Assembly: GCA_007126035.1 (NCBI GenBank)
Contig: SLCC01000018.1
Coordinates: forward strand, 1 to 34,582
Source of the DNA: Gemmatimonadota bacterium
GTDB lineage: Bacteria; Gemmatimonadota; Gemmatimonadetes; Longimicrobiales; RSA9
Direction: 5' to 3'
Length of the DNA stretch: 34,582 bases
Notes under the pieces: generated by a model
The model's database searches: none
What the model was told of the DNA's origin: nothing
The model's input: only the letters and a program-made list of their open reading frames with translations
Shown: positions 10,065-22,364 of the stretch, piece after piece
Position numbering within the stretch: position 1 is the first letter of the stretch
Layout: each line of letters opens with the position of its first letter
Program-made: the position numbers and the translations under genes

Positions 10065-12098
10065 ATGTCTAGTGCCCTCGTCCGCCATCGAGCCGACCGG
10101 TCCAGGGCGCCCGGACGGCTGCTCCGTGCTCGGGGCGCCGTGCTCCGAGCCGTGTGGATGCCGGTGGTGGCCGGGTTGGTGGCCGGATTGGTGGCCGGCT
10201 GCGGCGATCTGATCACCCCCTCCCAGCGGGTACCCACGGCCATCTCCTTCGAGGATCAGACGGTGACGGTCACGGCGGGCGAGCCGGTGGACCTGCGGCC
10301 GTTCGTGGTGGATCAGGACGGCCGCAAGTTCGACCGAATCCCGGTCTGGGGCGAGTTCAGCTGGGCTTCATCGGATCCGTCAGTCTTCGACGTGGCCAAC
10401 GGCTTTCTGGCCGTGACCCCCGGCCAGGCTACGGCGATGGTCGAGCTGGCGGAGCTGGAGGGGCGGGCAACGGTCCGGGTGAACCCGTCCTCGCTGGCTG
10501 TGGCGGTTCCCGCCGCGTACCTCGTCCAGGCGGTGCAGCGCCTCGACGGCACGGTCCCGCTGGTGGCGGACCGACCGGCCACGCTACGGGTCTTTGCCAC
10601 CGGTGACGCGGTCAACTTCTTCCAGCCCGACGTCGAGGTGGTCTTCCGCGTGGACGGGTCCGAGGTGGGCCGCCGCCGCGTCGGGCTGACCAGGGGCGGG
10701 TCGATACCCCGTGAGGTGGACCAGGGCGTCTTCCGGGATGCCTGGGACGTGCCCATCCCCGGCCAGTGGATCCTGCCGGGGCTGTCCTTCGCCCTGCGCG
10801 TCGATCCCGATGGGCTGCTGCCGCTGGCGGCTGGAGCGCATACCAGGTTCCCGGCCACCGGGTACCGGTCAGTGGACGTGCGGCGGGTCCCGGACTTCCA
10901 GATCCGCTTCGTCCCCGTCCATCAGACCCGGTTCGGCAGCACGGGCCATGTCCTGCCCGCCACGGCCGCCGCCTGGACCGAGTTCCTGGAGGATGTGTTC
11001 CCCATCGCCGGGATCCAGCGAGACGTCAGGCCGGCCTTCAGCACCGATGCGGCCACTACCAGCGGCCAGACCGACTGGCGCACGGTCATCCAGGAGATAT
11101 GGGCGCTGCGGATGCTGGATGGCGACGACCGCTACTACTACGGCGTCCTGCGCCGGCATGGCGGCTACGCCGGGCTCGGGTATGTGGGCTACCCCGTGGC
11201 CATCGGCTGGGACGACTTCGGCTTCGCCCCCGGCGACCCCGTACCCCTGGCCTACAGCGTGTTCGCCCACGAGCTGGGCCACAACTTCGGACGCTGGCAC
11301 GCCCCGGCGTGCGGTGCCGGCGATGTGGACCCGGACTATCCCTACTCAGGCGGCGTCATTGGCCACTACGGGCTGGACCATTCCCGGCGCGAGATCATGC
11401 GACCGGAGATGTTCGACCTCATGGGCTACTGCAACCCCCACTGGGTCAGCGACTACACCTTCGAGGGGGTGCTGGACTTCCGCCTCGAGCTCGAGGAGTC
11501 CCGGCGGCGCTGGGGCTTCGAGCGCGCCGCCGGCCCCGGGCTGCTGGTATGGGGGTCCGTCGTGGATGGCGCCGTCACCCTGGAGCCCGCCATTGCCGTC
11601 GACGAGGCCAGGCCCACACCGCCCGGCGGCGAGGGCGACCTGATGGTGGAGGGGAGGGACACCGAGGGCCGATTGCTGTTCCGTCGCCCGGTGCCCGCCA
11701 TGGCACTGTCCCACGGGCATGCCGATACCAGGGTGTTCTCGGCAATGGTGCCGCTGGACCAGGCGGCAATCGAGGCGGTGCACACGATCCGCGTCACAGG
11801 GCCCGGTATGCGGGAAGGTACCCGCGAGGGCAATCTCGCCGCGGCGCCTGCCGAGGCCAGGGCCCTGGCGGCAGGACGCGCCCCCTCCTTCTCCAGGGCC
11901 CGTGACCGGCCCGGCGCAACGGAGCTGGCCTGGGACCCGGATCGCTATCCACTCGTCGTCGTCCGGGACGCGATGACCGGTGACGTGGTGGCGTTCGCCC
12001 GCCACGGCCGGGTAGAGCTGCCGGTGCCGGAAGAGCGGTTGACCTTCCAGATCTCCGACGGCGTCCGGTCCGTCCAGGCACGGCCCGAGCGGCGATGA
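10065..12098 (+). CDS. Metzincin-type zinc metalloprotease lipoprotein with BIG2-like domain
   Basis: A 677-residue secreted metalloprotease. The N-terminus has a basic stretch then WMPVVAGLVAGLVAGC with a good lipobox (C46), so it is probably anchored in the outer membrane. Residues about 55-138 look like a bacterial Ig-like (BIG2) domain (FSWASSDPSVFDVANGFLAV). The catalytic site is H402-E-L-G-H-N-F-G-R-W-H412, matching HExxHxxGxxH, followed by a Met-turn candidate DLMGYC (M453). Together these define a metzincin. The C-terminal 200 residues look like beta-rich accessory domains. The start has GAGAGGTAGAG upstream. It overlaps the next gene by 4 bases (ATGA). Substrate is unknown; M66-like or related families are the closest I can suggest. 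Confidence 0.85.
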   Translation: MSSALVRHRADRSRAPGRLLRARGAVLRAVWMPVVAGLVAGLVAGCGDLITPSQRVPTAISFEDQTVTVTAGEPVDLRPFVVDQDGRKFDRIPVWGEFSWASSDPSVFDVANGFLAVTPGQATAMVELAELEGRATVRVNPSSLAVAVPAAYLVQAVQRLDGTVPLVADRPATLRVFATGDAVNFFQPDVEVVFRVDGSEVGRRRVGLTRGGSIPREVDQGVFRDAWDVPIPGQWILPGLSFALRVDPDGLLPLAAGAHTRFPATGYRSVDVRRVPDFQIRFVPVHQTRFGSTGHVLPATAAAWTEFLEDVFPIAGIQRDVRPAFSTDAATTSGQTDWRTVIQEIWALRMLDGDDRYYYGVLRRHGGYAGLGYVGYPVAIGWDDFGFAPGDPVPLAYSVFAHELGHNFGRWHAPACGAGDVDPDYPYSGGVIGHYGLDHSRREIMRPEMFDLMGYCNPHWVSDYTFEGVLDFRLELEESRRRWGFERAAGPGLLVWGSVVDGAVTLEPAIAVDEARPTPPGGEGDLMVEGRDTEGRLLFRRPVPAMALSHGHADTRVFSAMVPLDQAAIEAVHTIRVTGPGMREGTREGNLAAAPAEARALAAGRAPSFSRARDRPGATELAWDPDRYPLVVVRDAMTGDVVAFARHGRVELPVPEERLTFQISDGVRSVQARPERR

Positions 12099-12760
12099 GG
12101 GCGGGCGCGGCGGTGAGGGCCAGTGGGGCCAGGGTCAGGCGCTCGATGAGCGGGCGGTCGGCGAGCTTCCGGGCTACCGCTATCGGCCTGGTCCTGGCAG
12201 CCGGGGCCGGCACCGTCCTGGCGCCGGCGCCCGCGTCGGGGCAGGTGCCAGGCGCTTTCGGCATCGAGGTCAGAGGCGGTGGCGCCATCGGTTCCTATCA
12301 GCCCACCGGTGCCGGCCTCCAGGCCGTGCCGGGGCCCGCGTGGTCCGTGCTCCTGTCCTGGGGGCTGACCGAGGAGCTGGGGCTTCACATGGGCTATTCC
12401 GCCATGACCTTCGGTTGCGACGACGCCTGGTGCCGCGGCTACGACATGTCCTTCGTCTCACGGGGACCGAGCGTGGGCGCGCGGCTCCAGCTGGCCCGAC
12501 CGCTCACGCCGTGGCTGAGGGCGGGCCTCCTGCTGCACGACCTGGATCAGCGCTGGACCGCGGCCCAGGGGCGAGTCAGCGAAACCGCCGCCGGTCGCCT
12601 CGGCCTGGAAGTGGCCGCCGGCCTGACCTGGAACCTGCTGCCCGGGCTCGACCTGGTGCCCGGGGTCCACCTCGGCCTGACGCGGACCCGGAACTCCGAG
12701 GGCGACACCCACAGCGCCCTGTTCACCGCCCTGGACCTGGGTATCAGGTACCGGCCCTGA
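12095..12760 (+). CDS. Exported beta-barrel-like outer-membrane protein
   Basis: A 221-residue protein (205 if the second Met at 12146 is used) with a Sec signal peptide ending PAPASGQ. The mature part has alternating strand patterns typical of small eight-strand barrels (FGIEVRGGGAIGSYQP, WLRAGLLLHDL, LVPGVHLGLTRTRN) and ends ALDLGIRYRP, close to a barrel's final strand. A cysteine pair in FGCDDAWCRGYD may form a disulfide in a loop. Its ATG overlaps the stop of the metzincin gene, so the two are translationally coupled and probably work at the same membrane. Pore, adhesin or structural role cannot be told. Confidence 0.72.
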   Translation: MRAGAAVRASGARVRRSMSGRSASFRATAIGLVLAAGAGTVLAPAPASGQVPGAFGIEVRGGGAIGSYQPTGAGLQAVPGPAWSVLLSWGLTEELGLHMGYSAMTFGCDDAWCRGYDMSFVSRGPSVGARLQLARPLTPWLRAGLLLHDLDQRWTAAQGRVSETAAGRLGLEVAAGLTWNLLPGLDLVPGVHLGLTRTRNSEGDTHSALFTALDLGIRYRP

Positions 12761-12850: not shown

Positions 12851-13768
12851 CTATCGTCGGCCGCCTGCTGCGCCCCCGCCACCTCCGTTGCTACCGCCAC
12901 CTGGGGCTGAGGTCTCAAAGGTCACGTCATTCTCATTCACGGATCCACTGATACTGAACTCGAAGATACCCTCGCTGTCCAAGCCCTGGGTTTGGTTCGC
13001 AAAATTCACCTTGTATGTGGCTGCGCCAACGCCCTGGCCATTCACGTCCGCGCACTCCTCGTCCACGACCGGAATCCCGATGCTCTCAGCGCCACCGTCG
13101 GGTACAGTCCACTTCATCCTGGAGGTGATAGACGTGTAGGACAGGTCCGCGCACGAGGCCACCTTCTCGAAGTCCTCAGTATCCTCGTCCCAGATCAGAA
13201 CGATGAACTGGACGTCCCAGGCGGCTTGCTGCCGGTTGAGGTCGTAGTGCACGAAGAGGTCGTTTGCGTGGCGCAACTGGACCGTGAAGCGAAGGGTTTC
13301 GCCCAGGACTATCGTACCCACCCAGTCTGCCGTGTGGTGCGTCGTAGTAGTCTGGCCGGTGCCGTGCCTGGCCATACCATTCACGCGGAACAGGTACTCC
13401 CCATCTTCCCATTCCGTGAGGTCGTAGCAGCCTATCTCGGTGCCTGCTTCATTCCGGACATCGTCCAGGTAAACCCAATCCTCGTCCTCTTCGACGTAGA
13501 AGTCGAAGCTGAAGAAGTCGGTACTTTCGTACTGGTCGTCGTCGCGCGTGAACAGGTATCCGTCTGTCCACGTTGCGCAGAGGAGCCCGGTCTCAACGTG
13601 ATACTCGACGTCGGGGGCCGTATACCCGTGCCAGGCGGAGCCACTACCCGCCTGCCAGGTGTGATCCGAATGCAGCGCCGCCTCTGGTACCAGCCCCAGC
13701 GGATCTGCATCCGAGCACGCCGCCAAAACCACCAACGCGCCCAGTGCTGCCATAGAAATCTTCTTCAT
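12851..13768 (-). CDS. Lipoprotein of unknown function under a predicted cyclic-di-GMP riboswitch
   Basis: A 305-residue exported lipoprotein: the signal peptide ends VVLAAC with lipidated C18. The mature chain is acidic, rich in Asp, Glu, Trp and Tyr, and reads as beta-strand (DFFSFDFYVEEDEDWVYL, RFTVQLRHANDLFVHYDL, FEFSISGSVNENDVTF). Four further cysteines (64, 114, 206, 239) could form two disulfides. It ends in a Gly-rich low-complexity tail (GGGSNGGGGG). I recognise no family; a surface-exposed beta-sandwich is the best guess. The ATG has a strong GGGGGA ribosome binding site. The leader (13769-13902) carries a GEMM-I type aptamer and a second hairpin, so expression is likely set by a cyclic dinucleotide, which points to adhesion, matrix or surface lifestyle functions. 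Confidence 0.85.
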   Translation of the reverse strand: MKKISMAALGALVVLAACSDADPLGLVPEAALHSDHTWQAGSGSAWHGYTAPDVEYHVETGLLCATWTDGYLFTRDDDQYESTDFFSFDFYVEEDEDWVYLDDVRNEAGTEIGCYDLTEWEDGEYLFRVNGMARHGTGQTTTTHHTADWVGTIVLGETLRFTVQLRHANDLFVHYDLNRQQAAWDVQFIVLIWDEDTEDFEKVASCADLSYTSITSRMKWTVPDGGAESIGIPVVDEECADVNGQGVGAATYKVNFANQTQGLDSEGIFEFSISGSVNENDVTFETSAPGGGSNGGGGGAAGGRR

Positions 13769-13794
13769 GATCGTCCCCCGTCCTTAGATAGGTT

Positions 13795-13812
13795 TGCCGG
13801 TTGGTCCCGGCA
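13795..13812 (-). promoter_or_regulatory. Hairpin between riboswitch aptamer and start codon
   Basis: On the minus strand TGCCGG-GACCAA-CCGGCA forms a 6-bp stem and 6-base loop between the aptamer's 3' end and the GGGGGA ribosome binding site. No U-run follows, so it is not a classic terminator. It could be part of a translational expression platform or a simple spacer hairpin. Confidence 0.4.
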
Positions 13813-13819
13813 TCGCCCT

Positions 13820-13902
13820 CTTCGGGAGCCCGGCTGTCTCCCGTATCGGGGAGACCCGCGGCTTTGCGGACCGGCCTCGCGGCCGGGGTGCCGTTTCGGA
13901 AG
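13820..13902 (-). ncRNA. GEMM-I (cyclic-di-GMP-I) riboswitch, minus strand
   Basis: Read on the minus strand, the leader of the lipoprotein gene has the GEMM-I architecture. A P1b stem CCGGCC/GGCCGG is capped by a GCGA (GNRA) tetraloop (13886-13871). The conserved CCGCAAAGCC linker follows (13869-13860). A second arm has GTCTCCC/GGGAGAC (13855-13849/13842-13836), then the receptor AGCCGGGC and CCGAAG; CUUC (13902-13899) can pair with GAAG (13823-13820) as closing P1. The 3' half (GGGTCTCCC...GAGACAGCCGGGCT.CCGAA) resembles the Geobacter GEMM elements as I remember them. The ligand-contacting segment reads ACGGCACCCC, aligning a G at the position that is G in cyclic-di-GMP and A in cGAMP-selective variants, so cyclic-di-GMP is favoured. 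The usual AAA after GGC is changed to ACC. The aptamer ends about 50 bases before the ATG. Confidence 0.82.
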
Positions 13903-14467
13903 GAGCTGCTGTTGCTACGGTTCTTTCGATTGTGTGACTGCTGGGCGGGAGTGGCGGGCGGCGGAGCCGTTATCGCCCCGGGGAGAGGGGAGAGAGCTGT
14001 CGGGTGCCCTGTTGTTGTCGGGTCCTCCTGGTCCAGCTATCCGCTCGGCGCACTCGCGGTGCGTTCCGGCGGCCCATCATGGGAAGAGTCGAGCCAGATG
14101 ACGTCGGGTGCCGTTGTCGCCATTGTAAACGTGGTATCCACAATGGTTTGGCTGGCGCGGGCCTGGGCGCGGGCCCCGCTCCCCGCTGCTGCCGCTGTTC
14201 CGTCGTGCAACGATGCCGCGTTGCGGCACGGGACATGGCGCGTGTCTCGGTCGCCTGGTGGTGGACCATTCGTCGAGCGACCCCGGAAACTGTTGATCGG
14301 CCGTGGCCGGGAGTACCCGCCGGGCAGCTGCTGGAACGACCATTGCGGTCCCACCAGCCTCCCGCCGGAGGTCATTGGCGGGGACCGGCTCAGCACGAAT
14401 CGAGACCGTTGACGCTGCTGCGTCTGGAACTGCAGCTTTGAGTGCCACCTTCTCGGGGGAGACGCCA
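13903..14467. promoter_or_regulatory. Long divergent control region with a 7-bp dyad
   Basis: About 565 bp between the riboswitch and the activase gene. Open frames crossing it have no credible start or composition. It should hold the minus-strand promoter for the riboswitch transcript (right of 13902) and the plus-strand promoter for the activase operon. A perfect dyad CCATTGT (14120-14126) and ACAATGG (14140-14146), with a 13-base spacer, is the best operator candidate; it lies in a locally A+T-richer patch. No sigma-70 pair fits well. Confidence 0.4.
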
Positions 14468-17429: not shown

Positions 17430-18716
17430 ATGACCGATGCCGACTCGGCAGCAGTAGCCGTTCCCGCACTACAGGCAAGGTCCGACGTGGAGCGGACCAC
17501 GTACATCCCCCACATGGGCGATCACTCCTTCGCCATGGCCGCCGCCATGCGCCATCACGGCATGCCCGCGGCCGTCCTGCCGCCCACCGATGACCGCTCG
17601 CTGGCACTGGGTTTGGCGGCGTGCGGCGGGCGTGAGTGCCTGCCGGCCTTCCTGGCCCTGGGCGACATCCTCAAGCTGACCCGTGACGCGGGTTTCGACC
17701 CGGCTCGCAGCGCCTTCTTCTTCCCCGGCTCGTGCGGCCCGTGCCGCTTCGGTCACTACACGGCGCTGCTCAGGGACCTGCTGGAGGAGCGGGGGCTGGG
17801 CGACGTCCGGCTCATATCGCCCAGCGCCGCCAACGCGTTCCACGGCTTCGGCCACCGGCCCCGGCCACTGCGCCAGCTGGCCTGGCAGGGTCTCATCGCC
17901 GTCGACCTCCTGGACCGGCTCCGCCTGGAGACCCGCCCCTACGCGCAAGAGCGGGCGCTGGCGGAAGAAGCTTATCAGGCGGGGCTTCGTGACGTGATGG
18001 AGGCGGTGGAGCAGGGGGGTGGCGGCCGGCTCGTCCGGGCGTTACGCTCCGCCGTGCCACGGTTCACCGGGATCCCCAGGACAACCGACGAGCTCCGCCC
18101 GCTGGTCGGAATCGTGGGCGAGATCTACGTCCGGTGGAACGAGCACGCAAATCGGGGCCTGGTCCGTCAGGTCGAGGAGTTGGGAGGCGAGGTATTGCTG
18201 TCGAGCATGGGTGAGTTCGTGCATTTCTCCACGTACCGGTTGAGGGCGGTGGCCCGGGCGTCGGGTGACTGGCCGGCGCTGGCGCGAGGCGCCCTGACAG
18301 GCGCCTGGCAGTGGCTGGCGGAGCGTCGCCTGGCAAGGGTGGTGGAGCACGCACTCCGGCGCCCCGACGAGGCGGGCAGCGGCTTCGTGGTCCGGGCCGT
18401 GACACCCTTCTACGACGCCACCCTGGGCACGGAGGCGGTGCTCAGCATGGGCCGCGCCATCGACTACGGCCGCATGGGCGCGCACGGGATCCTGAATGTG
18501 CTACCCTTCTCGTGCATGCCCGGCATGGTGGTGGGTGGGATGGCGCCGCGGATCCGCCGGGACCTGGGCCAGCTGCCATGGCTCGACATACCGTACGACG
18601 CCCAGAAGGAGACCAATATCCGGACGCGACTCGAGGCGTTCATGTACCAGGTCCACCAGTTCCGCGCCCGCACCGGAAGGGATCCGCTACGCCGGCACAG
18701 TCGCTTGAGGGTCTAG
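17430..18716 (+). CDS. 2-hydroxyacyl-CoA dehydratase-like Fe-S protein (activase partner)
   Basis: A 428-residue protein resembling the C-terminal module of long CoA-activase proteins and the B/D subunits of 2-hydroxyacyl-CoA dehydratases. Cysteines likely to ligate Fe-S clusters are C65 and C70 (ACGGREC), C102 and C105 (PGSCGPCRFGHY) and C362 (PFSCMPG). No signal peptide or membrane helix is seen, so it is cytoplasmic. In many bacteria this region is fused to the activase; here it is a separate gene in another frame, with its own GAGAGG site and ATG 10 bp after the activase stop. It should receive electrons from the activase. Whether it dehydrates a hydroxyacyl-CoA or reduces another small substrate, as double-cubane-cluster reductases do, cannot be told. 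Its stop overlaps the lgt start (TAGTG). Confidence 0.85.
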   Translation: MTDADSAAVAVPALQARSDVERTTYIPHMGDHSFAMAAAMRHHGMPAAVLPPTDDRSLALGLAACGGRECLPAFLALGDILKLTRDAGFDPARSAFFFPGSCGPCRFGHYTALLRDLLEERGLGDVRLISPSAANAFHGFGHRPRPLRQLAWQGLIAVDLLDRLRLETRPYAQERALAEEAYQAGLRDVMEAVEQGGGGRLVRALRSAVPRFTGIPRTTDELRPLVGIVGEIYVRWNEHANRGLVRQVEELGGEVLLSSMGEFVHFSTYRLRAVARASGDWPALARGALTGAWQWLAERRLARVVEHALRRPDEAGSGFVVRAVTPFYDATLGTEAVLSMGRAIDYGRMGAHGILNVLPFSCMPGMVVGGMAPRIRRDLGQLPWLDIPYDAQKETNIRTRLEAFMYQVHQFRARTGRDPLRRHSRLRV

Positions 18717-19528
18717 TGCTCATTCAGCGCATCATCCACGACTTCGATCCCTTCCTGATCCGGATCCACGGCGACTTCGGCATCCGCTGGTACGCTTTGC
18801 CCTATATCCTGGGCTTCGTCCTGACCTACGTCTGGTTGGCCCGGGCCGTGCGCAGGAAGGAGCTGAAGAGGGTGCGCGTCGACGACCTGGACGCCTTCCT
18901 CTTCTACGTCATCATCGGCGTACTCGTGGGCGCCCGCTTCTTCCACGTCTTCGTCTTCGAGTTCGAGCACTACGGCTTCGACCCGCTCAGGTGGATCGCT
19001 GTCTGGCGCGGTGGCCTCTCTTTCCACGGCGGACTGGTGGGCGCCATCCTGGGCATCGGCCTCTTCGCCCGGCGCCATGACCTGACCATCTACTCCATCA
19101 CCGACAGGATCGCCGTGCCCGTGGCCATCGCCCTGGGGTTCGGCCGGATCGGCAACTTCATCAACGCGGAGATGCCCGGCGTACCCTACGACGGCCCCTT
19201 CTGCGTCGACTACACCCAGAACCCGCACCTCGCCTTCCCGCCCCAGGAATGCCGGCACCCGACCCAGCTCTACGAGATGGCCAAGAACTGGTTCATGGCG
19301 GCCGTGCTCTGGGGCATGGGCGCCCGGGCCGGACCACGGCCAGGCGTCATCACCTGGTCGTTCATCGGCCTCTACGGATTCATCCGCTTCTGGCTCATGT
19401 TCCTCCGGGACGAGGAGCGGGTCCTGGCTGGGATGACGCTGAGCCAGGTCTTCTCAGGGCTCATGGCCATGCTGGCGGCCGTCATGCTGGTGAGGCTCCT
19501 CCGACCGGGCGATCCGGTAGGAAAATAG
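18716..19528 (+). CDS. lgt: Prolipoprotein diacylglyceryl transferase
   Basis: Lgt transfers diacylglycerol from phosphatidylglycerol to the lipobox cysteine of prelipoproteins, the first step of lipoprotein maturation in the inner membrane. The product has 270 residues with about seven hydrophobic segments. It has GGLSFHGGLVG, the signature GRIGNFINAEMPG (E. coli R143, N146, E151, G154 equivalents), HPTQLYE and YGFIRFWLMFLR (R239 equivalent). The position matching E. coli E243 is Met (RFWLMF instead of RIIVEF). The GTG start at 18716 shares one base with the upstream TAG and has GAGG 6 bases before it, implying coupled translation. It serves the lipoproteins seen elsewhere in the window (metzincin, riboswitch lipoprotein, OmpA, possibly M55). 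Confidence 0.93.
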   Translation: MLIQRIIHDFDPFLIRIHGDFGIRWYALPYILGFVLTYVWLARAVRRKELKRVRVDDLDAFLFYVIIGVLVGARFFHVFVFEFEHYGFDPLRWIAVWRGGLSFHGGLVGAILGIGLFARRHDLTIYSITDRIAVPVAIALGFGRIGNFINAEMPGVPYDGPFCVDYTQNPHLAFPPQECRHPTQLYEMAKNWFMAAVLWGMGARAGPRPGVITWSFIGLYGFIRFWLMFLRDEERVLAGMTLSQVFSGLMAMLAAVMLVRLLRPGDPVGK

Positions 19529-19578: not shown

Positions 19579-19730
19579 TCGCTGACCTAACTTGTGGCGC
19601 CGGAACTAGTTGCCAGGTCGTAGGATCAAGGCACGGCCGTTGCCTCGCCACCTTCCCAACCATGCCGGACGCGAGTAGCGCTGCGGCGAGCCGGCTGAGT
19701 GACCCGACTATCAACGGGGGAATTGTGTTG

Positions 19731-20951
19731 ATGAAGGCACGGAAGCGGCCACTGAACGCGGACTCAGCCAGTGCTTCGCCCGGGCTCCAACTGCTTTCCG
19801 CGAACGGCACAGCTGGCCTAGTGGATGAGAACGATGAGCGTTATCACGCCCTCTTCGAAGGCTCGATGGACGCCATCTATTTGTCCAGCGAGGATGGCCG
19901 TCTTCTGCGAGTGAACCCTGCTTTCCGTGAGCTCTTCGGATACAGCGTGGAAGATCTCCGGACGGCCAGGGCGCGGGATCACTACGTGGATCCAGGCGAC
20001 CGGGATCGTTTCCTCGAGGCGATCAACGAGAAAGGCGCGGTTCGTGATTTCCAGACGCGTCTGCGGCGCAAGGACGGCAGCGTACGAGACTGCCTGATCA
20101 CCTCTACGGCCAGGCGGACGCGGGACGGCGGGCTGGAATACCAGGGCATCATCCGTGATGTGACCGAGCAGTTGCAGGCCCAGACCGAGCTCGAGCGGAT
20201 GACGGAGGCGTTGCGGCGTTCCAATGCGGAGTTGGAGAAATTCGCGTATGTGGCCTCCCACGACATGCAGGAGCCGCTGCGCAAGATAAGGGCTTTCGGT
20301 GATCGGTTGGGCAGCATGCTGGAAGGCGATCTGGACGACCGAGGGTCCGACTACCTTCGCCGGATGGTCTCGGCGGCGGAGCGCATGCAGACGCTGATCG
20401 ACCGTCTGCTCAGCTATTCCCGCGTATCATCCCGCGGCATAGACCTGGCCGATGTGGACTTGGGCGATGTGGTGGCCGAGGTCCTGGTCGACCTGGAGGG
20501 CCAGGTGGCTGCTACCGGCGGCCAGGTGGATGTGGGTCCGCTGCCCCGGCTGCAGGCCGACGCGGTGCAGATGCGTCAGCTGTTCCAGAACCTGATCTCG
20601 AACGCCCTCAAGTATGGGCCCGCCCAGGGCGCGCCCCGGGTGAGCATCCAGGCTCATTACCTGGACCGTCAGGGTCGGAGCGTGCCAGCGGGTCGGGGCG
20701 CCGTCTCGGTCCGGATCAGGGTCAAGGACAATGGCATCGGCTTCGAGCCGGAGTACGCGGAACGGATATTCGAGTTGTTCCAACGTCTTCACGGGCGCGA
20801 CCGCTACGACGGAACCGGTATCGGGTTGGGTGTGTGTCGCCGGATCGTATCGCTTCATGGCGGCTCGATCACGGCTGTGGGCTGTCCTGGTGCCGGGGCG
20901 ACGTTCACCGTGGCATTACCCCTCGAGCAGGAGAGCAGGCGGAATGGCTAG
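19731..20951 (+). CDS. PAS-domain sensor histidine kinase (soluble)
   Basis: A 406-residue cytoplasmic histidine kinase without membrane segments. The PAS domain (about 36-150) has DAIYLSSEDGRLLRVNPAFRELFGYS and ends in GIIRDVTEQ. A short coiled coil (150-172) leads to the HisKA domain with H177 in FAYVASHDMQEPLRKIRAF, the form common next to phytochrome-type and Rcp1-linked kinases. The ATPase domain has an N box NLISNALKYG, G1 DNGIGFEPEYAERIFELFQRL and G2 GTGIGLGVCRRIV. The start at ATG 19731 follows GGGGG; an earlier ATG at 19662 lacks a ribosome binding site. It overlaps the response regulator gene by 8 bases. The PAS ligand or signal is unknown. The likely output is phosphotransfer to the two following regulators. 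Confidence 0.93.
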   Translation: MKARKRPLNADSASASPGLQLLSANGTAGLVDENDERYHALFEGSMDAIYLSSEDGRLLRVNPAFRELFGYSVEDLRTARARDHYVDPGDRDRFLEAINEKGAVRDFQTRLRRKDGSVRDCLITSTARRTRDGGLEYQGIIRDVTEQLQAQTELERMTEALRRSNAELEKFAYVASHDMQEPLRKIRAFGDRLGSMLEGDLDDRGSDYLRRMVSAAERMQTLIDRLLSYSRVSSRGIDLADVDLGDVVAEVLVDLEGQVAATGGQVDVGPLPRLQADAVQMRQLFQNLISNALKYGPAQGAPRVSIQAHYLDRQGRSVPAGRGAVSVRIRVKDNGIGFEPEYAERIFELFQRLHGRDRYDGTGIGLGVCRRIVSLHGGSITAVGCPGAGATFTVALPLEQESRRNG

Positions 20952-21411
20952 CACCCATACCACGCTGATCCCGATCCTCATCGCCGAGGACGACGAGGAG
21001 GACCGGATGCTGGCGAAGGACGCGCTGGAGGAGTCTCGCCTGGCGAACCCGATCCATTTCGTACAGGACGGTGTGGAGCTGCTGGATTTCCTGTACCGCC
21101 GGGGCCCCTACCGGGCTCCCGACTCCTCGCCCAGACCGGGGCTCATCCTCCTGGACATCAACATGCCGCGGATGACGGGGCTGGAGGCGCTCCGGGAGAT
21201 CAAGGAAGACGCGGAGCTTCGACGGATCCCGGTGGTCATCCTCACCACGTCCCGTGCTGACGAAGACATAATCCGCAGCTATGACCTGGGGGTGAACTCC
21301 TTCATCTCGAAGCCGGTGACGTTCGAGGGGCTGGTAGCGGTGATGCGTCTCCTCGGCACCTATTGGTTCGAGATCGTGGATCTGGCTCCCGGGGGAGATC
21401 AATGCTCATGA
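20944..21411 (+). CDS. Rcp1-type single-domain response regulator
   Basis: A 155-residue stand-alone receiver domain. Acidic pocket D16/D17 (AEDDEED), phosphoacceptor D71 in LLDINMPRMTG, switch residue T101 and K123 in FISKPV are all present. The long segment between the second helix and the third strand (RRGPYRAPDSSPRPG) is typical of Rcp1-like partners of PAS or phytochrome kinases. There is no output domain, so it acts as a phosphorelay shuttle or by binding a partner protein. AGGAG lies just upstream of the ATG; the gene overlaps the kinase and the next gene, indicating one operon. Confidence 0.93.
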   Translation: MASTHTTLIPILIAEDDEEDRMLAKDALEESRLANPIHFVQDGVELLDFLYRRGPYRAPDSSPRPGLILLDINMPRMTGLEALREIKEDAELRRIPVVILTTSRADEDIIRSYDLGVNSFISKPVTFEGLVAVMRLLGTYWFEIVDLAPGGDQCS

Positions 21412-22364
21412 GGCCGAACACGCTTCGTGTCCTGCTCATCGAGGACGATGAGGACGACTATGTCCTGGTGCGCGACCTGCTCCGGGACCTGGATTACGTG
21501 GACGTCTCGCTGGACTGGGAATCGGACTACGAGAGCGGGAAGGAGGCGCTCCAGGCCGGGGGCTACTGCGTCTGCCTCATGGACTACCGTCTCGGCGCCC
21601 GTGATGGCATCGAGCTGCTGCGGGAGCTGGACTCCGCGGTTTTCCATACTCCGATCATCTTCCTCACTGGTCAGGACAGCCGCGAGCTCGATATGGAGGC
21701 CATGGAGGCGGGTGCCGCGGACTACCTGGTCAAGGGCAAGATAGGGCCACCGCTCCTGGAGCGCTCGATCCGCTACGTGCTGGAACGGCACCGGCTCCTG
21801 ATGGAGATGCACCGTCGCTCCCTGGTGGACCAGCTCACGGGTATCCTCAACCGCCGGGGCTTCGAGGAGCAGATGATCAGGGAGATGAAGCTGGCCCGCC
21901 GGCGGCGGCGGACCATGACGATCCTGTACGCGGACATCGATGATTTCAAAGCGATCAACGACACCCACGGTCACGCGGAGGGCGACAAGGCCCTGCGCGA
22001 AGTGGCCGATCTGCTGGCTTCGTCGTTCCGGGAGTCCGACATAGTGGCCCGACTGGGCGGCGATGAGTTCGTGGTGGTGGCCCTGGACACCTCCATGCGG
22101 GACATAGCGTTTCCCGAGAGGCGGTTGCAGGTAGCCCTGGCGGATCGAAACGCCACGACCGACCGACCTTATCGGATCTCCCTGGCCCTGGGAATGGCGC
22201 TGTACGATCCTGACGAGCCATGCTCCATCTGGGAGCTGGTCAGCAGGGCCGATGGTCGGATGTACCAGCGCAAGGCGAAGCGACAGCCCGTGCAGAACGA
22301 AGCCGTCGTATCAGAGCGGGGGAGGTCGCCACGGGTGACCGTGGAATCGGAGTCTTCTTCCTGA
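21402..22364 (+). CDS. REC-GGDEF diguanylate cyclase
   Basis: A response regulator that makes cyclic-di-GMP from two GTP. The receiver domain (about 8-125) has acidic residues at 14-16, phosphoacceptor D61 (LMDYRLG) and K111. A helical linker leads to the GGDEF domain (about 142-300) with an intact active site GGDEF (219-223) and metal-binding DIDDFKAIND (178-187). An allosteric inhibition site RESD (210-213) sits five residues before GGDEF, so product inhibition is expected. The C-terminal 25 residues are a disordered tail. Two ATGs are possible, 21402 and 21408; the second makes an ATGA overlap with the preceding stop, and GGGGGAG precedes both. Phosphorylation by the upstream kinase probably switches on cyclase activity. 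The product could be read by the riboswitch at 13820-13902. Confidence 0.95.
   Translation: MLMRPNTLRVLLIEDDEDDYVLVRDLLRDLDYVDVSLDWESDYESGKEALQAGGYCVCLMDYRLGARDGIELLRELDSAVFHTPIIFLTGQDSRELDMEAMEAGAADYLVKGKIGPPLLERSIRYVLERHRLLMEMHRRSLVDQLTGILNRRGFEEQMIREMKLARRRRRTMTILYADIDDFKAINDTHGHAEGDKALREVADLLASSFRESDIVARLGGDEFVVVALDTSMRDIAFPERRLQVALADRNATTDRPYRISLALGMALYDPDEPCSIWELVSRADGRMYQRKAKRQPVQNEAVVSERGRSPRVTVESESSS

Follow-up and report, generated by a model that had tools for sequence, protein, structure and literature searches.

Class I c-di-GMP riboswitches (Rfam RF01051), exemplified by Vc2 and Cd1, lie in 5' leaders and share a P2/P3 architecture, a GNRA loop, a GCAAAG linker, an internal-loop C that pairs with P3, and a G at the selectivity position. 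In the usual form of the class, the loop is GAAA, the internal loop is AAA/GAC, and P3 carries a tetraloop receptor. G11 of Cd1 is the equivalent of G20 of Vc2 (PMC9262584). A second Rfam model, RF03167 (c-di-GMP-I-GGC), describes aptamers without the receptor, with a consensus of GCGAA, GAAA and AAA/GAC. Geobacter riboswitches of the GEMM-Ib type have the same overall fold and, with A at the G20 position, favor 3',3'-cGAMP. Control of surface proteins by c-di-GMP through an RNA leader is known from C. difficile, where the signal promotes production of the adhesins CD2831 and CD3246, Gram-positive proteins whose leaders contain the class II aptamer (PMC11477304).

The window analyzed here is a 34,582-nt stretch of a Gemmatimonadota genome, on the minus strand of which the initial annotation had placed a cyclic-di-GMP-I riboswitch controlling a lipoprotein. 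A covariance-model search matched RF01051 to nt 13902–13821 over the full model (1–87) with 57.1 bits, well above the gathering cut-off of 35. Given this score and an E-value of 8.7e-9 for a search of the entire window against all 4227 Rfam families, the match is far beyond chance; it is also the sole gathering-level Rfam match within the window. The GNRA-capped stem, the linker and the segment ending in CCGAAG that had been picked out are all present (Table 1). The GTCTCCC/GGGAGAC arm listed with them is present too, but GEMM-I aptamers do not typically conserve an uninterrupted 7-bp arm, which here replaces the usual tetraloop receptor. In the Rfam alignment the receptor positions show up as deletions, leaving no site for receptor docking even though a GNRA loop (GCGA) is available. 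The receptor is typical of RF01051 rather than universal, and the score passes without it. The window aptamer shares with Vc2 and Cd1 the location, architecture, linker, selectivity G and internal-loop C, whereas it differs in its plain P3, its GCGA loop, its ACC/UCC internal loop and an extra hairpin before the ribosome-binding site. Absence of the receptor is shared with RF03167, but here the window aptamer scores 55.9 bits, under the cut-off of 59, whereas sister elements reach 63.0 and 68.1 bits; GCAAA, GCGA and ACC/UCC set it apart from that consensus. Judged by its sequence, the element is a genuine c-di-GMP-I (GEMM-I) riboswitch of a known kind, predicted to bind c-di-GMP.

Table 1. Features of the riboswitch locus and of genes discussed in the text
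Feature	Position (nt)	Strand	Basis or remark
c-di-GMP-I (GEMM-I) aptamer core	13821..13902	-	RF01051, 57.1 bits; RF03167, 55.9 bits (under cut-off)
Extended P1, 5' strand GCUCCUUC (GCTCCTTC)	13899..13906	-	sequence; pairing modelled
Selectivity nucleotide G, model position 11, equivalent to Vc2 G20	13892	-	RF01051 alignment; PMC9262584
Internal loop, 5' side ACC facing UCC	13887..13889; 13870-13868	-	canonical, AAA/GAC
P2 hairpin CCGGCC-GCGA-GGCCGG (loop 13880-13877)	13871..13886	-	RF01051 alignment; helix covariation
Linker GCAAAGCC	13867-13860	-	sequence
P3 arm GUCUCCC/GGGAGAC, plain helix without tetraloop receptor	13836..13855	-	alignment; subtype comparison; covariation
AGCCGGGC...CCGAAG	end at 13820	-	sequence
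Extended P1, 3' strand GAAGAGGGC	13815..13823	-	sequence; pairing modelled
Post-aptamer hairpin UGCCGG-gaccaa-CCGGCA, a probable element of the expression platform	13795..13812	-	shuffles; arm matching
Ribosome-binding site region, AAGGA and GGGGGA	13774..13785	-	sequence
Unclassified acidic lipoprotein, 305 aa, LAAC lipobox, Cys18, predicted FN3/Ig-like N-terminal domain (~45-156)	12851..13768	-	
CoA-enzyme-activase-type gene	probable start 14468	+	PF01869 and PF09989
Outer-membrane-barrel-like ORF	12095-12760	+	sub-threshold match; converges on lipoprotein gene
Response-regulator/GGDEF protein, canonical GHAEGD and GGDEF motifs	21363..22364	+	likely c-di-GMP source

The aptamer lies directly upstream of the lipoprotein gene, as had been proposed, and ends 52 nt before its start codon, within a stretch of ∼700 nt that separates this gene from the divergent CoA-enzyme-activase-type gene. 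The outer-membrane-barrel-like ORF converges from downstream, so the lipoprotein gene appears to be transcribed alone. That ORF is itself preceded by one for a reprolysin-like metallopeptidase of 677 aa (10065–12098, plus strand). At 18311–19528 (plus strand), ∼5 kb from the lipoprotein gene, lies the gene for prolipoprotein diacylglyceryl transferase (LGT), which would attach the lipid anchor to the product.

The description of the product as family-less, acidic and disulfide-capable held up. Its lipobox, MKKISMAALGALVVLAAC, passes a PS51257-like rule. Besides a lipid-attachment match under the cut-off (LPAM_1, 15.5 bits versus 20), no Pfam or NCBIfam domain scored above cut-off in the lipoprotein, Big_2 and the known Ig-like Pfam families included. 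The mature protein has a pI of 4.09 and four cysteines besides the lipidated one (64, 114, 206 and 239); Cys64 and Cys114 are invariant among three aligned homologues, which makes a disulfide between them possible. AF2 modeling of the whole protein gave a low-quality result (pLDDT 48.9), weak outside the N-terminal domain. Modeling of residues 31–156 gave pLDDT 78.5 and pTM 0.74, with matches to FN3/Ig-like structures at TM about 0.45–0.6 and E near 1e-3, a level sufficient to predict the fold type, not the function. A PDB sequence search with the lipoprotein gave nothing beyond a match at chance level (E 0.29).

The best overall explanation, to which we assign a probability of about 0.85, is that a receptor-less class I c-di-GMP riboswitch leader sets translation of the lipoprotein. 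Diguanylate cyclases would raise c-di-GMP, and the canonical pocket should hold it. The bound ligand would stabilize the P2/P3 fold and P1, the fold, pocket letters and genome context being directly documented, and P1 formation would alter the leader beside the ribosome-binding site. Scans around the aptamer found neither a consensus promoter nor a U-tract terminator, and the lack of the latter makes translational control likelier than termination. The ribosome-binding site, previously called strong, is present, with AAGGA (13785–13781) 12 nt and GGGGGA (13779–13774) 5 nt from the ATG, but is adequate rather than clearly strong. The GC-rich hairpin in the spacer has counterparts elsewhere: taken together, 26 related spacers are more stable than shuffles preserving their dinucleotides (z -5.9, 0/200; window z -2.3), and hairpin arms match better within than between loci (0/2000 permutations). 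A nine-codon leader peptide (ATG at 13813, TAA overlapping AAGGA) was considered and dropped, because the spacer of the nearest homologous locus (G149, below) has no ATG.

How ligand binding would be relayed to the ribosome-binding site was addressed by pairing analysis. P1 can reach beyond the limits first drawn for it (Table 1), and UCCUU in its extended 5' strand is complementary to AAGGA. This extension covaries in receptor-bearing aptamers (2/2000) and is not significant in the subtype of the window (z -1.54). Folding of three leader lengths, with the aptamer forced or not, did not clearly change exposure of the ribosome-binding site, and sequence-only folding favored non-aptamer pairing by about 3–4 kcal/mol. 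Permutation tests across loci supported no anti-Shine–Dalgarno pairings. The direction of control would most likely be ON at high c-di-GMP, since CUCCUU of the P1 5' strand can otherwise pair with AAGGA and since, by analogy, the adhesion genes that C. difficile keeps behind c-di-GMP riboswitches are known to be turned on by the signal. Translational ON control is our best guess, held with moderate confidence. The opposite sign, with c-di-GMP turning the lipoprotein OFF (for example, if P1 formation frees ACCU, upstream of the ribosome-binding site, to pair with that site), is a distinctly weaker candidate. The strand that follows the aptamer is able, in the window and in several related spacers, to pair with the stretch just ahead of the ribosome-binding site, which would compete with P1, and Cd1, likewise of class I, works as an OFF switch at the level of transcription (PMC9262584). 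Yet this rival outer stem does not reach significance across loci (z -0.98), and the C. difficile adhesion-type genes behind c-di-GMP riboswitches are ON (PMC11477304).

Sensing of a different cyclic dinucleotide (3',3'-cGAMP, for instance), or relaxed selectivity resulting from the altered internal loop, is improbable. Throughout the subtype the C-rich internal loop beside the pocket departs from the canonical AAA/GAC, and G20 has been described as a factor in discriminating among cyclic dinucleotides, not a hard filter (PMC9262584). But the G that the initial annotation had placed at the selectivity position is there, by alignment with G20, and the remaining pocket letters are canonical, the linker (GCAAAG) and 3' CCGAA being retained; on account of this G, the idea that the element is a cGAMP switch was dropped. 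The genome encodes ten GGDEF domains, one of them in the window, and has four RF01051 matches. Wherever the GGDEF active site is readable, it has GHxxGD or a close form, which we take, by the published Asp/Ser rule, to fit synthesis of c-di-GMP, again arguing against another ligand. The response-regulator/GGDEF protein encoded in the window is a likely, if putative, source of the signal. Its gene is preceded by those for a histidine kinase (19662–20951) and a receiver protein (20731–21411), making up a two-component c-di-GMP module on the contig of the riboswitch.

This genome has three other aptamers. One (C73:29890–29979, minus strand; L007:9891–9980) is a GEMM-I aptamer upstream of a sugar-transferase-like ORF and has A at the G20 position together with GCAGAG, a signature associated with 3',3'-cGAMP preference. 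G and A at this position therefore coexist in one cell. Another (C146; L008:6753–6839) is receptor-less with C at the G20 position, and the gene behind it starts like that of a lipoprotein (MKWTTPLVLLLAVFAYTAC) and is cut by the contig end. The last (C167; L006:179–257), also receptor-less, is within 260 bases of a contig end. Among 127 aptamers sampled from the phylum, 25 have A at the G20 position, 19 of these with GCAGAG replacing GCAAAG.

Homologues of the lipoprotein were found in just three other genomes among 154 of the window's order; G149 and G374 belong to this order. The nearest, from another family (G149), is 43% identical over residues 6–169. Directly upstream of it lies an RF03167 aptamer (63.0 bits) in a leader very similar to that of the window, so the same RNA does precede a lipoprotein homologue in a relative. 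Neighboring genes in the stretch retrieved from G149 look unlike those of the window, suggesting that aptamer and gene have stayed together. No aptamer was seen near the remoter homologues (G374 and G109) within the DNA examined. In G374 (C124, minus strand; L040/L192), a homologue of the N-terminal domain heads an open frame of 1219 aa, indicating that this domain is used with different C-terminal parts.

To place the element among its relatives, we compared 127 unique aptamers, with groups assigned by regular expression. In the larger group (72/127), P3 contains a CUA-type receptor, the loop is always GAAA, the internal loop is AAA/GAC or similar in nearly all cases, and lipoprotein start codons mostly lie 17–27 nt past the aptamer. 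The second group (40/127), which includes the window, has a plain P3 helix, a non-GAAA loop in 39 of 40 members (mostly GCGA), an internal loop of the ACC/UCC or ACA/GCC type, and start codons mostly 39–65 nt past the aptamer. Stems in these homologous leaders covary, as expected of a GEMM-I aptamer: 94.7% of cells are paired in the second group (20–44% in slid alignments), and across its 40 members double changes occur at 11 of 22 P2/P3 pairs. The covariation score is 0.245 versus 0.125 for shuffled alignments (0/500, a count that is not a probability because the sequences are related). A degenerate or non-functional GEMM-I relic that has lost gene control is very unlikely: neither promoter nor terminator was found around the aptamer and switching is not evident thermodynamically, but all core letters are kept, the subtype helices covary, and aptamer and homologous lipoprotein recur in another family.

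RF01051 is present in 204 of 395 Gemmatimonadota genomes, and the coupling to lipoproteins extends across the phylum. Scored with a regular-expression lipobox and a greedy ORF caller, in a sample that leans toward high-scoring aptamers and toward the window's order, the first downstream ORF carries a lipobox for 77 of 133 aptamers (58%), versus 20 of 319 background ORFs (6.3%) from 20 stretches of 20 kb chosen regardless of content. When each genome contributed a single aptamer, the lowest result in 1000 draws was 38/71, versus 8/110 for background ORFs preceded by a gap of 120 nt or more (Fisher p 4e-12). Together with the recurrence in G149, the difference of 58% versus 6% argues that the link between aptamer and lipoprotein is not accidental. 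In this phylum, c-di-GMP-I aptamers mostly precede, and from their placement probably control, surface lipoproteins, a habit rather than a one-off. All ten lipoproteins tested behind such aptamers contain Big_2 Ig domains; they were hand-picked from top-scoring loci, and the proportion among all such lipoproteins may be lower. Tandem receptor-less c-di-GMP-I aptamers precede a lipoprotein gene in two genomes (G315:C48:33385–33543, L139; G380:C120:10676–10840, L145), and two neighboring aptamers are also seen in G308:C24 and G001:C64.

With the riboswitch reading, the product would be a lipid-anchored, acidic, Ig/FN3-like surface protein that probably joins a sessile or matrix program with the Big_2 lipoproteins that follow this class of RNA throughout the phylum. 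An adhesin or matrix role, as first suggested, is a reasonable inference from the company that the lipoprotein keeps. A broader proposal strikes us as an even bet: that the c-di-GMP-I riboswitches of Gemmatimonadota are a dedicated regulator of many Ig-like surface lipoproteins and that the receptor-less GCGA subtype is a structurally distinct aptamer lineage, which replaced its tetraloop, receptor and pocket-side internal loop jointly and has its own translational platform of aptamer, hairpin and ribosome-binding site.

Systems of this kind are already known. Newer are the lipoprotein regulon that spans the phylum and the linked structural subtype, neither of which we found described in the literature searched. 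A search combining c-di-GMP riboswitches with Gemmatimonad- gave no paper, which does not prove absence elsewhere. The predicted control by c-di-GMP provides a functional handle on a protein without a family, and the joint change of tetraloop, receptor and internal loop offers a natural experiment on the tuning of this riboswitch class by tertiary docking. No PilZ domain in the genome of the window exceeds the cut-off, and RNA may be a main c-di-GMP read-out for surface proteins in this largely uncultured phylum.
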